IMG/VR virus record: IMGVR_UViG_3300006920_000208
Coordinates: 1-25,957 of that record
DNA: 25,957 nucleotides
Direction: 5' to 3' (one strand)
From: a virus
Shown piece by piece: positions 9,820 through 14,751 of this stretch. Within the stretch, counting starts at the first letter, position 1. Every line of letters begins with the position of its first letter. The notes beneath the pieces were generated by a model. That model was not told the origin of the DNA and did no database searches. It saw nothing but the letters and a program-made list of their open reading frames with translations. The translations under genes and the position numbers were made by a program.

Positions 9820-10005
9820 ATGACAAAGATAGAACAACTACACGTCGGAATACAAGCATGGAAGAAACTAGGATGGCTACCATACTGTCCAAATAACGTA
9901 AGAAAGTATATCTCTTTCATTCCTTTTTACATGCCATACAATCTGATGAGAAGAAAAATATACAACGGTTATACATTAACAATGGGTAATAAAAAGAATG
10001 TTTAA
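9820..10005 (+). CDS. Small basic protein leading the sugar cassette
   Basis: A 61-aa protein of unknown function, with the best ribosome-binding site in the window (AGGAGGT) and a consensus promoter in front. It is basic (many Lys and Arg) and has a Trp/Pro/Tyr-rich middle (K-L-G-W-L-P-Y-C-P) followed by an aromatic stretch, I-P-F-Y-M-P-Y, that could lie at a membrane surface. There is no clear transmembrane helix and no recognisable domain. It overlaps the glycosyltransferase gene by 8 bases. Strong initiation here may mainly serve to load ribosomes for the downstream enzymes by coupling. Confidence 0.7.
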   Translation: MTKIEQLHVGIQAWKKLGWLPYCPNNVRKYISFIPFYMPYNLMRRKIYNGYTLTMGNKKNV

Positions 10006-10768
10006 TGTACGTACCCCTACTATATATGTAGGCTATGACGTAAGAGATCACAGAGCCTACGAAGTATTACATGAATCAATTAAAAACTACACAGACAAGT
10101 ATCCAATCGTACCTTTGATTGAGCCAGTGCTCCGTAAGATAGGTCTGTTTCGTAGAACACATAATACATTTAAACATAATCCAATGCAGAAGTATGATGC
10201 CTTTGACGGTAAACCATACAGCACAGACTTTACATTCACACGATTCCTTGTCCCTAGTTTAAATCTACATAGTGGGCTGGCATTGTTTATGGATGCTGAC
10301 ATGCTAATGAGGTCAGACCCTACAGAAATCTTTGAGACATATGGCAGACAGAAGCAGTATGCAGTACAGGTGGTTAAACACAAATACAATCCAGAGGCAG
10401 GGGTTAAGCTAGATGGTGTAGAACAAACACGTTACCATAGAAAGAACTGGTCTAGTTTTATTTTGTTTAACTGTGACCACGAAAAGAATAGGCAGCTTAC
10501 GGTAGACGATGTAAATCTAAAGTCTGGTTCTTGGCTGCACTCTTTTGGTTGGCTAGAGGACGACGAGATAGGCAGCATCAACGAAGAGTGGAACTGGTTG
10601 GACGGTCACTCAGATCCTTTCATCGAACCTAAGAACGTACACTTTACCACAGGTGGTCCTTGGTTTAACAAGTGGAAGCCGTCACGTTTAGTTGACGAAG
10701 CATTCAGTGAAGAGTGGCTCAAGGCAGAACAATTAATAACAACAAAGAGAGTAATGGAGAACATGTAA
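9998..10768 (+). CDS. GT-A-fold glycosyltransferase (GT8-like)
   Basis: A 256-aa nucleotide-sugar transferase. After an N-terminal beta strand (I-Y-V-G-Y-D, 9-14) it has F-T-R-F-L-V-P (79-85), then the metal-binding D99-A-D101 in F-M-D-A-D-M, and a C-terminal H215-F-T-T-G-G-P-W that matches the second metal-ligand region of GT8-like enzymes. It is single-domain and soluble, with no signal or membrane segment. The donor could be the GDP-sugar made by the dehydratase encoded further down the same cassette, but the substrate cannot be read from the sequence. Its stop overlaps the next start as TAATG. It may decorate virion protein or host surface sugar. Confidence 0.85.
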   Translation: MFNVRTPTIYVGYDVRDHRAYEVLHESIKNYTDKYPIVPLIEPVLRKIGLFRRTHNTFKHNPMQKYDAFDGKPYSTDFTFTRFLVPSLNLHSGLALFMDADMLMRSDPTEIFETYGRQKQYAVQVVKHKYNPEAGVKLDGVEQTRYHRKNWSSFILFNCDHEKNRQLTVDDVNLKSGSWLHSFGWLEDDEIGSINEEWNWLDGHSDPFIEPKNVHFTTGGPWFNKWKPSRLVDEAFSEEWLKAEQLITTKRVMENM

Positions 10769-13068
10769 TGTATACGTTTGTAACATCATTTAATAAAGAA
10801 TCATACAACACATATGGACTAGAGATGTTAAAGTCTGTCAGTGAAAACTGGAAGACAACTGCAGGTATGTTACGTTTAGTTGTATACGTAGAAGGCTTTG
10901 ATAGTTTAGATGAGCTACCAGAACACGAGTTTAGTTCTGTCATTGAGTACCGTCACCTTGAACACGTAGAGGCACGTACTGTTTTCCTAGAACGTAACTC
11001 AGATAAGAACGGCACTCTTGAAGGTGGTCACTATAACTACCGTATGGATGCTGCACGTTTCTGTCACAAGGTATATGCTTTCTCTGATCTAGCATTTGAA
11101 TTAATTTCAGATGACTACAGAGGTTGGCTTGTCTGGTTAGATGCCGACACAGTTACTACAAAAGAGTTTACTGCTGGTGATGCAGCTAAGTTACTACCAG
11201 AAAGTAAAGAGGTAGTACACCTTGGTCGTATTGACATCGACTACAGTGAGACAGGGTTTGTAGGATGGAACTTAAACATGCACAATGCAGCATCTCTTAT
11301 TACAGACATGAGGGGTGCATATGATACCGATGAGATCTTTGGTTATAGAGAGTGGACAGATGCTTTCTTATTTGAACGTCTACTAAATATCTATAAGGCT
11401 CACGGCATGGAAGTATTAAATCTTTCAGAAGGTGTACGTGGACTAGCTGTAGTTGAAAACTCTCCACTAAAAGATTTCTTTGTACACAAGAAGGGTAACT
11501 TAAAGTTTGTAGATGCTGAACCAGCCCAACCTACCAAGCAGTTGAAAGGTGCTAAACGATACAAGCAACTAGCTGATATTGTTAGACATTATTCAGAAGA
11601 TAATGATAACTTTAGTATTCTTGAAGTTGGTACGTGGGACGGTCGTCGTGCTATTGAGATGGCACTGGCTGCTTTTGAGTCTGTTGACAAGGTGCACTAT
11701 CGTGGCTTTGATTTGTTTGAAGATGCTACAGATGAGACAGATAAGGTAGAACTAAACGTAAAGAAACATAATACTATATCTGCTATATCCGAAAGACTTC
11801 AACAGTTCTCTGATAAGATGAATGAGAATAATAAAGAGTTTACATTCTCTCTACATAAGGGAGATACAAAGGATACACTGAAAGGCTCTAAGCATTTAGA
11901 TGTTGACCTAGCTTACATTGACGGTGGTCATTCATATGAAACTGTTAAGAGTGATTACGACCATCTATCTTCTGTTCCTGTAGTTGTATTCGATGACTAC
12001 TATAGTCCAATGGATGAAGACACTGTTGTTTCAGAAGATCATAGAGGGATTATAAAAACATTTAAAGATATTAAAGTTAAACGTAAGGCAGTGCTTCCAT
12101 CTGAAGACCCAACAACATTGGGCTGGTATGTACACCTAGCTATTGCACTACAGGATTCAGATACCGTTAAGGACTTACCTACTTCGTTGACACGTGTACC
12201 TATTATTGTTAAGCCTAAAGACTCTATGCCTGTAGATGACATACGTAATAATGTACGTGAGAATGTTAAACTAATTAATAACTTTGATTGGGTAAAGAAC
12301 TACAAGCCTACAGAAGAACATGCAATCATTGTGTCAGGTGGTAAGTTAGACTTTATTAAGATAAAGAAACTACAGCAGGAAACAAATGCAAAAGTATTTT
12401 GTGTTAAACATTCCTATCAACGTCTGCTAAAGAATGGCATCAAACCATTTGCTTGTGTAGTGTTAGACCCACGTCCTATGGAAGGTGTTAGCACACATGG
12501 TGTAGTACGTAAAGACTTGTTTAAAAAGATTGATCCTACGACTAAGTTCTTTATTGCTTCTATGACAGACATTACGGTAACGAAATACATAATGGAAAAG
12601 ACAGACAACATACTAGGCTTCCATGCTTTTACGGATGCCATACGAGATGAAACTGTTACTAATAAAGTAACTATTGCAGAGGGCATTGGTATAAATCCAG
12701 GGGAATTATTAATCTCTGGTGGCACATGTGCTGCTACTCGTACCATTGGATTGCTTGAGACATTGGGATATACTAACCAACATTTGTTTGGTTTTGATTG
12801 TAGTGTTACAGAGAAGGAAGCTAAGAAGCATAAGGATATTAAAGACGAAGCAGGTAACGACAAGTATCTTGCAGTAGAAACAGGTGACAAGAAGTTCTTT
12901 ACAACTGGAGAGCTGCTAGCTTTAGCTCAGGACTTAGAACGTATGTTTGAAGACAAGGCATGTAAAATAAACTTTAAGTTTTACGGCTCTGACAGTCTAG
13001 CTGCACAGGTGTTTGAGCAATCATATTACAATGAACATTATAAGACGTTTGACCAATGGCTAAATTAA
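10768..13068 (+). CDS. Three-domain protein: glycosyltransferase + SAM methyltransferase + DUF115/MAF-like
   Basis: A 766-aa fusion. The frame opens at 10714, but the ATG at 10768 overlaps the upstream stop (TAATG), has GGAG upstream and starts a beta strand (M-Y-T-F-V-T-S-F), so it is the likely start. Residues 1-245 are GT-A-like, with D125-A-D127 and W-T-D-A-F-L-F-E-R. Residues about 265-450 are a class I SAM methyltransferase: motif I E-V-G-T-W-D-G-R (286-293) and Y-I-D-G-G-H-S-Y (383-390), as in Methyltransf_24-type sugar methylases. Residues about 515-760 resemble DUF115, the MAF flagellin glycosyltransferase family: V-S-G-G-K-L (522-527), N-G-I-K-P...V-V-L-D-P and I-S-G-G-T-C-A-A (649-656). 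It probably transfers and methylates a sugar; acceptor unknown. Confidence 0.85.
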   Translation: MYTFVTSFNKESYNTYGLEMLKSVSENWKTTAGMLRLVVYVEGFDSLDELPEHEFSSVIEYRHLEHVEARTVFLERNSDKNGTLEGGHYNYRMDAARFCHKVYAFSDLAFELISDDYRGWLVWLDADTVTTKEFTAGDAAKLLPESKEVVHLGRIDIDYSETGFVGWNLNMHNAASLITDMRGAYDTDEIFGYREWTDAFLFERLLNIYKAHGMEVLNLSEGVRGLAVVENSPLKDFFVHKKGNLKFVDAEPAQPTKQLKGAKRYKQLADIVRHYSEDNDNFSILEVGTWDGRRAIEMALAAFESVDKVHYRGFDLFEDATDETDKVELNVKKHNTISAISERLQQFSDKMNENNKEFTFSLHKGDTKDTLKGSKHLDVDLAYIDGGHSYETVKSDYDHLSSVPVVVFDDYYSPMDEDTVVSEDHRGIIKTFKDIKVKRKAVLPSEDPTTLGWYVHLAIALQDSDTVKDLPTSLTRVPIIVKPKDSMPVDDIRNNVRENVKLINNFDWVKNYKPTEEHAIIVSGGKLDFIKIKKLQQETNAKVFCVKHSYQRLLKNGIKPFACVVLDPRPMEGVSTHGVVRKDLFKKIDPTTKFFIASMTDITVTKYIMEKTDNILGFHAFTDAIRDETVTNKVTIAEGIGINPGELLISGGTCAATRTIGLLETLGYTNQHLFGFDCSVTEKEAKKHKDIKDEAGNDKYLAVETGDKKFFTTGELLALAQDLERMFEDKACKINFKFYGSDSLAAQVFEQSYYNEHYKTFDQWLN

Positions 13069-13514
13069 AAGAAAAACAAGAGCTGTTCTGTCAGAACTAT
13101 TTTATTACACGTAATGCTACGAAGGCAGCTCAATCTGCTGGATATAGTGAGCAGTCTGCATACAATCAGGGCTATCGTCTACTCAAACAACCTGACATCC
13201 AAGACAGGTTAAAAGAGTTAGAGTCAGAAGTAAGTACCGACCTAGATGTTATAACAGAGCTAGAGCAGCAGTACGAAGCTGCTAAACTAACTGGCTCTGG
13301 TCAGGTGGCACTCAAGGCACTAGAGTTGTTGTCACGTGTACGTGGTAACAATCAGGAAGACGAGGGGCCTACAGACTTAGAAGGACTAGAAGAAAGCATT
13401 AAGCATTCGTTTCAAACAATAGGTAAAGAAAAAGTATACGAGCTTTTAATGCAAACATTCCCTGAAGACTTTGACGACGAGGAAGAAGAGGACAAGGTAG
13501 ATGCTGATAGCTGA
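13056..13514 (+). CDS. Terminase small subunit
   Basis: A 152-aa DNA-recognition subunit that starts packaging. The N-terminal domain has the Terminase_2-type helix-turn-helix: K-Q-E-L-F-C-Q-N-Y at 7-15, then N-A-T-K-A-A-Q-S-A-G-Y-S and a basic L-L-K-Q-P-D-I-Q-D-R-L. A central helical region would form the ring oligomer. The C-terminus is very acidic (D-D-E-E-E-E-D-K), as in other small terminases. It overlaps the three-domain sugar enzyme by 13 bases and lies on the opposite strand from the virion genes. The large subunit is not in the window. This separation from structural genes is unusual compared with T7, where gp18 and gp19 sit with the late genes. Confidence 0.88.
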   Translation: MAKLKEKQELFCQNYFITRNATKAAQSAGYSEQSAYNQGYRLLKQPDIQDRLKELESEVSTDLDVITELEQQYEAAKLTGSGQVALKALELLSRVRGNNQEDEGPTDLEGLEESIKHSFQTIGKEKVYELLMQTFPEDFDDEEEEDKVDADS

Positions 13515-13737: not shown

Positions 13738-14751
13738 ATGACAAAGACAGCACTAGTAACAGGTATAACAGGACAGGACGGAGGCTACCTAGCAGAGCTT
13801 CTTATTGATAAGGGTTATGAGGTACATGCTCTACGTAGACGTAGTTCTTCTGTTAATGATTTACATCGTATATCTCATCTATTAGATACAGACAAACTAC
13901 ATCTACATTATGGTGATCTTACTGACACAGGTTGTCTAGTAAAGTTGTTTGATAAGAAATTATTTAATGAGGTCTATAATCTAGGTGCACAGTCTGATGT
14001 ACGTGTGTCATTTGACATACCAGAATACACAGCAGATGTAGATGCCTTGGGTACACTGAGGCTGCTAGAGTGCATTAGAACACTAGGCATGATGGAACAT
14101 ACTAAGTTCTATCAAGCCTCTACGTCAGAGCTGTACGGTAAGGTGGTAGAGATACCACAGAATGAAAGCACTCCCTTCTATCCACGTTCACCCTATGGTG
14201 TAGCCAAACAGTTTTCCTTCTGGTCTGTTAAGAACTACAGAGAAAGCTATGGACTACATGGTTCTAATGGTATTTTATTTAACCATGAATCACCGTGGAG
14301 AGGTGACAACTTTGTCACACAGAAGATAGTAAAGGGTGTATCTAACATTGCTAGGGGAGCACAGAGCCACATAAGTCTAGGTAACATGGATTCTAAGAGA
14401 GATTGGGGACATGCTAAGGACTATGTAGATGGCATGTATCGTATGCTACAGCAAGAAAAAGGTGACGACTATGTGCTGGCAACAGGTGAGCTACACTCTG
14501 TACGTGAGCTAGTGGAGATATGTTTTAATTACTTTGATATTAAGATACACTGGGAAGGTTCTGGTACAGATGAAAAAGCTATCGACGAGAACGGCAACAC
14601 TGTAGTTAATGTTAACCCAGAGTTTTATCGACCAGCCGAAGTAGAGTTATTAGTAGGAGATCCAAGCAAAGCAAAGAATGTACTAGGGTGGAAGCCTAAG
14701 TATACCTTTACTACTTTAATAGAAGAGATGTTGGAAGCTACTCTATACTAA
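13738..14751 (+). CDS. gmd: GDP-mannose 4,6-dehydratase
   Basis: Converts GDP-D-mannose to GDP-4-keto-6-deoxymannose, the precursor of fucose, rhamnose, perosamine and related sugars. At 337 aa it is close to the usual size. It is an extended short-chain dehydrogenase: NADP-binding G9-I-T-G-Q-D-G-G near the start, S-T-S-E131-L-Y-G-K carrying the catalytic Ser/Thr and Glu, and Y153-G-V-A-K157 with the catalytic Tyr and Lys. The N-H-E-S-P motif (182-186) is present, but the usual R-R-G and F-V-T-R-K-I read W187-R-G and F-V-T-Q195-K-I. No epimerase or reductase is visible to finish the sugar, so either the host does this or the keto-sugar is used directly. Its stop overlaps the stop of the opposing gene. 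Confidence 0.95.
   Translation: MTKTALVTGITGQDGGYLAELLIDKGYEVHALRRRSSSVNDLHRISHLLDTDKLHLHYGDLTDTGCLVKLFDKKLFNEVYNLGAQSDVRVSFDIPEYTADVDALGTLRLLECIRTLGMMEHTKFYQASTSELYGKVVEIPQNESTPFYPRSPYGVAKQFSFWSVKNYRESYGLHGSNGILFNHESPWRGDNFVTQKIVKGVSNIARGAQSHISLGNMDSKRDWGHAKDYVDGMYRMLQQEKGDDYVLATGELHSVRELVEICFNYFDIKIHWEGSGTDEKAIDENGNTVVNVNPEFYRPAEVELLVGDPSKAKNVLGWKPKYTFTTLIEEMLEATLY

Follow-up and report, generated by a model that had tools for sequence, protein, structure and literature searches.

The window analysed here, the whole stretch of 25,957 nucleotides of IMG/VR record IMGVR_UViG_3300006920_000208, has the appearance of a podovirus-type phage contig, with a primase/helicase, a DNA polymerase, a Cas4-type exonuclease, a terminase small subunit (TerS) and virion proteins; ThyX and ribonucleotide reductase genes were named by eye from the translations. 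The deposited phages that come closest by polymerase are the pelagiphages HTVC103P/104P/115P at 48–49% identity, and the annotation of the relatively close isolate HTVC104P over positions 1–50000 names no glycosyltransferase or methyltransferase. At the end of the replication and nucleotide gene block of the window, pointing the same way as the replication genes, with the structural genes in the other orientation, lies a cassette whose central gene is a single unbroken frame (ATG at 10768, stop at 13068) encoding a 766-aa fusion protein (Table 1). A GTG 54 nt upstream is an alternative start that would yield 784 aa, but the ATG is preferred on the strength of the family alignment and because the stop codon of the upstream gene, here called G, overlaps the fusion start codon (TAATG). 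A first-pass annotation had read the protein as three sugar-related folds in one chain, a glycosyltransferase followed by a methyltransferase and a DUF115 domain, and profiles, structure prediction and conservation all bear this out. The domain boundaries it suggested (1–250, 260–480 and 510–766) were close, and are better drawn at residues 1–248 (N), 253–466 (M) and 476–766 (C).

Table 1. Features of the cassette and its flanks in the window.
Feature	Position	Strand	Basis
Partner gene G, 256-aa GT8-like glycosyltransferase (DxD, HFTTGGP)	9998..10768	+	Glyco_transf_8
Three-domain fusion ORF: GT-A, O-methyltransferase, Maf-like/PF01973	10768..13068	+	ORF, Pfam, AlphaFold2, structure matches
N domain, residues 1–248, GT-A fold nearest GT6 enzymes	10768..11511	+	Structure match, invariant residues, stand-alone relatives
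N-domain DAD motif, residues 125–127	11140–11148	+	
N-domain His240-x-Lys-Gly	11485–11496	+	
M domain, residues 253–466, TylF/MycF-type SAM-dependent O-methyltransferase	11524..12165	+	PF13578, PF05711, MycF alignment, fold
M-domain YIDGGH, residues 383–388	11914–11931	+	
M-domain DD, residues 409–410	11992–11997	+	
C domain, residues 476–766, PF01973 MptE-like/Maf central domain, sialyltransferase-like fold	12193..13065	+	PF01973, 5mu5/8sd5 matches
Terminase small subunit (TerS), overlapping the fusion gene at its 3' end	13056..13514	+	Terminase_2 2e-18, phrog_51
GDP-mannose 4,6-dehydratase (gmd), full gene, just after TerS	13738..14751	+	TIGR01472 1e-147

The full-length AlphaFold2 model, built on 41 relatives, has a mean pLDDT of 86 and a pTM of 0.46, so that the single domains can be trusted but their mutual arrangement cannot. 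A PDB sequence search with the whole protein returned chance matches only. When the model was used for a structure search, residues 1–249 matched GT6 enzymes (4ayl, Z 15.1, rmsd 3.5, 192 residues; 4ayj, Z 15.0), and the expectation that the DAD region adopts a GT-A fold is thereby upheld. The N domain shares this fold with the GT6 glycosyltransferases, including the ABO transferases and BoGT6a, but differs from them in carrying a DxD motif and in the lack of any sequence-level match: the N-terminal region of the window protein matches no Pfam family, Pfam searches with 24 N domains at E 0.1 brought up no glycosyltransferase-6 family, and the PDB sequence search with the N domain gave no match at E 10. 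Residues D125, D127, E161, D198 and H240 are invariant in all 41 members, and the domain also occurs as stand-alone relatives.

The middle of the chain had been called a Methyltransf_24-like methylase, and the corresponding Pfam profile (PF13578) indeed matches residues 285–411 above its gathering score (5e-10). TylF (PF05711) follows at residues 258–413 (1.8e-5; 24.6 bits against a cut-off of 23), and residues 253–464 of the model match O-methyltransferases such as MycF and COMT with Z scores of about 15 (MycF, 15.5). In a profile alignment, YIDGGH and FDDYY line up with the conserved acidic motifs of MycF; D385 is retained in 39 of 41 members and D409 and D410 in 40, one member lacking M altogether. 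The M domain thus resembles the TylF/MycF macrolide sugar O-methyltransferases in fold, motifs and family, but differs from them in being one piece of a multidomain phage protein. Other collections contribute little here, with weak methyltransferase matches only from NCBIfam for the full protein and a single partial one from PHROGs, to phrog_2675.

The C-terminal region had been predicted to fold as DUF115, and this prediction proved correct. PF01973 (MptE-like, formerly DUF115) matches residues 494–682 at 2e-11 (44 bits against a cut-off of 34.6). Modelled alone, the C domain reaches a pLDDT of 90 and a pTM of 0.88 and superimposes on residues 244–503 of the Maf protein 5mu5 (Z 18.7, 3.5 Å, 228 residues), ahead of 8sd5 (Z 14.9), SteA (about 10), thiamine pyrophosphokinases (8–9) and sialyltransferases (7–8); in the full-model search, residues 482–740 fell on MjHPPK/MptE and Maf 5mu5 topped the whole list. 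The domain carries the motifs SGG (523–525), LDPR (566–569), GGT (651–653), D677, E715 and QD (721–722), and S523, G525, D567, R569, G651, G652, R658, D677, E715, Q721 and D722 are invariant across 41 members. Of 28 C domains, 27 are recognized by the NCBIfam profile FlagModPseD for PseD flagellin modification (best 3e-12) and six, weakly, by that of the Kdo transferase WaaZ (best E 0.009); PHROGs gave no reliable match for the domain.

Since the same fold also serves an HPPK, the C domain might be a pyrophosphokinase of the HPPK/MptE type, or some other nucleotide enzyme, in which case the fusion would not form one glycan pathway. The archaeal 6-hydroxymethylpterin diphosphokinase (MjHPPK, 8SD5) is the second-best structural match, and the Pfam family carries the MptE name. 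We regard this reading as very improbable, because Maf scores higher and FlagModPseD recognizes nearly every member, and because the domain is fused to sugar-type enzymes and is in the permanent company of G, N and the O-methyltransferase, none of which are pterin genes.

The likeness to Maf flagellin glycosyltransferases (PF20157 plus PF01973; 5MU5) is confined to the central fold. The Maf N-terminal domain (PF20157, Maf_flag10_N) was not matched in any of 41 members at E 0.1, while the same profile matched all three alphaproteobacterial Maf-like proteins scanned as a control, and the Maf C-terminal helical domain is missing, the 5mu5 alignment stopping at residue 503 and the phage chain ending shortly after. 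An intact O-methyltransferase stands in place of the Maf N-terminal domain, a GT-A domain is added in front, and the gene sits in a packaging operon rather than a flagellar locus. As two defining Maf domains were tested for and are missing, the fusion is Maf-like at its C-terminal end without being a true Maf, and should not be classed as one. At full length, 5mu5 covers phage M plus C as well, with an rmsd of 14.7, and that alignment is not counted as evidence for a shared domain arrangement. The Maf N-terminal domain has been described as a Rossmann fold that is degenerate and weakly resembles methyltransferases (PMC11339370), and the pairing of an intact methyltransferase with a Maf-like domain may reflect the origin of that domain, which we note as a lead.

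The first-pass annotation had gone on to propose build-and-cap glycosylation of a protein acceptor, either virion or host flagellum/receptor. The general idea of building and capping finds support, but the flagellar variant is weakened by the missing Maf domains. Glycosylation of host flagellin with a nonulosonic acid could appeal to the homology between the C domain and Maf, and the phage protein may conceivably transfer nonulosonic acids. Flagellin as the target is nevertheless extremely improbable: both Maf-specific domains are absent, no CMP-sugar synthetase was found in 14 possibly incomplete records, and the fusion is a core gene linked to packaging.

This core status, like the obligate GT8-like partner, had been missed by the first-pass annotation, and it emerged from relatives collected by scans of IMG/VR, whose contigs may be fragments, so that absences are soft, and whose locus counts are partly non-independent. 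A profile search for the same domain order, which the first-pass annotation had proposed as a check, recovered N-M-C in 127 ORFs, some loci repeating a contig, and 123 loci are left once known repeats are dropped. The window protein is 38–99% identical to 40 representatives. Median dN/dS is 0.087, 0.115 and 0.09 for N, M and C, about 0.1 in each, and the predicted catalytic-type residues are either invariant or missing from no more than two of 41 members, counting the one without M (L140); these values and this conservation indicate that all three domains are under purifying selection and kept functional. G, which matches Glyco_transf_8 in 13 of 14 members (best 1.5e-5), lies immediately upstream of the fusion in 104 of 117 loci; in the remaining 13 a single gene separates the two. 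On the other side, the TerS ORF overlaps the fusion in 97 of 108 loci, and G, the fusion and TerS form an operon coupled by these overlaps. With TerS as bait the fusion was found immediately upstream in 71 of 71 loci (62 with at least 2.6 kb of upstream sequence). That scan covered the best 80 matches, so its result, that the fusion is a core gene, holds for the clade surrounding the window. In contrast, gmd was found in 36 of 123 loci; as only part of the clade has it, it is not an obligate part of the cassette, and it is a possible supplier of a GDP-deoxysugar in one subclade.

A wider family became visible with a divergent C alignment, which gave 584 candidate relatives. In the best 80 loci of these, the architectures were N-C (43), N-M-C (18), M-C (12) and C alone (8), and in several of the 12 M-C loci N is encoded separately, immediately ahead of M-C. 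Of the 55 loci with room for G, 48 have it upstream and in the same orientation. The separate parts keep the order G, N, M, C, in the combinations G+N+M-C, G+N-C and G+M-C. M is sometimes missing or a separate gene while G, N and C stay together, and methylation therefore looks optional; the pattern of split and fused versions looks like that of one pathway with an optional methylation step. Directly downstream of the cassette, a portal gene on the same strand is found in 30 of the 80 loci, mostly overlapping or abutting, and the terminase large subunit (TerL) is upstream in 16. PHROG matches of representatives confirmed portal, TerL and major head protein, with one of five portal candidates unmatched; certain portal genes were named by eye, and the TerL of the window clade is missed by phrog_2. 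Together, the portal downstream and TerL upstream place the cassette in a head and packaging operon. Proximity to the terminase was rejected as a general rule, as stand-alone N genes were distant from TerL in the loci where the latter could be located.

Several side observations were made in the wider survey. A gene of about 250–300 aa (gene R), weakly similar to a putative glycosyltransferase (DUF6716), occurs with the cassette in 41 of the 80 wider-family loci and in many N loci (for example L293:3191–3988, L291:6719–7630, L011:7348–8178 and L012:4792–5613); no copy was found in the window or in the rest of its clade. Pelagibacter phage Mosig (L011; MT647606.1, 126524–131228), an isolate, has a gene block that combines N with a GT8-like gene, R, a sulfotransferase and two methyltransferases, and is a possible experimental model; with no isolate known from the window clade it is the nearest one for experiments, although no C domain was seen in it at the sensitivity used. 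A prophage-like region of an alphaproteobacterial genome (L195:3650–12081) has TerL, two sulfotransferase-like genes, a stand-alone C gene and a portal-like gene (named by eye) in a row. A 1.1 Mb genome from the search of the alphaproteobacterial class (L272:996–3980) carries a HAD-like domain fused to PF01973, near a repetitive tail-fibre-like ORF.

Outside the uncultured viruses, relatives are scarce. In a tblastn search of 50,697 phage records, the N domain only was found, in Mosig and in a Manatee Spring podovirus, and C or M-C queries from four sources gave no match. The C alignment searched against bacterial genome contigs found two loci, both on phage-like contigs within metagenome bins. 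Contigs L174 and L175, binned as Sneathiella and Flavobacteriaceae genomes, look like phage contigs that carry the cassette. An uncultured Caudovirales protein of 714 aa (UniProt A0A6J7X5Q0) is a full-length structural match to the window protein at 30% identity and is annotated as a methyltransferase-domain protein only. In the literature, we found no paper describing the N-M-C architecture and none relevant on MptE-like or DUF115 proteins in phages; phage glycosylation is already known, whereas for a three-domain fusion with a Maf-like C domain no earlier description was found.

On the basis of sequence and models, the fusion would be a soluble three-step enzyme that works with G to build and cap a glycan, with a virion protein as the most likely acceptor, a reading to which we give about an even chance. 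The activity, the order of steps, the donors and the acceptor in the scheme that follows are all what we infer. G (GT8-like) and N (GT-A, with a metal-dependent DxD) would transfer nucleotide-activated sugars to the acceptor in the host cytoplasm, M would methylate a sugar hydroxyl with SAM, and C (Maf/sialyltransferase-like) would cap the product with a further residue, most plausibly from a host-made CMP-activated ulosonic acid. From the fold alone we infer a CMP-sugar as the donor of C. CMP-Kdo would be the obvious candidate in Gram-negative hosts, and is attractive by analogy since a Maf enzyme is reported to take CMP-Kdo in addition to CMP-Neu5Ac (PMC11339370); the weak WaaZ matches of the C domain also count in its favour. 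A search of the 14 family-carrying records, which may be incomplete, turned up no CMP-sugar synthetase (PF02348), and the donor must then be host-made, or be something else. The acceptor, most likely a virion protein, would be modified late, before or during head assembly. A virion protein is favoured because the gene is core, has an obligate GT8-like partner and keeps company with packaging and head genes. There is also a precedent in mycobacteriophages, which use glycosyltransferases of their own to modify capsid and tail-tube proteins (Freeman 2023, cited in PMC12363180). In those systems (Che8, Corndog, Myrna) the virion acceptors have been shown, while here they are proposed, and the available text of PMC12363180 describes no PF01973/Maf-like domain or three-domain fusion for them. 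Counting against a virion acceptor, genes beside a terminase or portal can be inserted accessory cargo, the stand-alone N genes of other phages are distant from TerL, and in the window the cassette runs with the replication genes and counter to the structural ones.

The main rival, though an unlikely one, is that the cassette alters the LPS core or another host glycan during infection and so blocks re-adsorption or competing phages. Core-type transferases work without a transmembrane carrier, and WaaZ-like and capsule-type glycosyltransferase signals do occur within the cassette; moreover, phage glycosyltransferases that alter the host serotype are known (PMC12619734). Against this reading, the gene is core and strictly conserved, not variable like an accessory gene, and is linked to terminase and portal genes; no Gtr-type membrane genes were seen adjoining the cassette. 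It is improbable that the transferases decorate modified bases of the phage DNA. Glycosyltransferases encoded by viruses are able to attach diverse glycans to DNA as hypermodifications (Pyle 2024, cited in PMC12619734), and the cassette does sit at the end of the replication and nucleotide gene block, but no thymidylate synthase/dCMP-hydroxymethylase homologue (PF00303) was found in the window or in 11 further records, many of which may be incomplete. A search with Tet_JBP was also negative, but its control was silent too and the absence carries no weight.

More tentatively still, and with some doubt, we propose that G, N, an optional M and a Maf-like C, fused or split, may constitute an undescribed and widespread phage system, core and packaging-linked, in uncultured marine and other phages, that would cap virion proteins with a host CMP-ulosonate such as Kdo; the methyltransferase/Maf-like pair may in addition mirror the ancestry of the Maf N-terminal domain. 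Comparing split with fused versions gives an order for the parts of one pathway, with no experiment needed. The C lineage, with hundreds of relatives in uncultured viruses and none found in the 50,697 deposited phage records, marks an annotation gap. A soluble Maf-like transferase without the flagellin-binding parts would be useful for studying how Maf enzymes choose their acceptors. If the proposal is true, a core gene encoding 766 aa is devoted to particle decoration in a clade of marine podoviruses; this would bear on host recognition or shielding.
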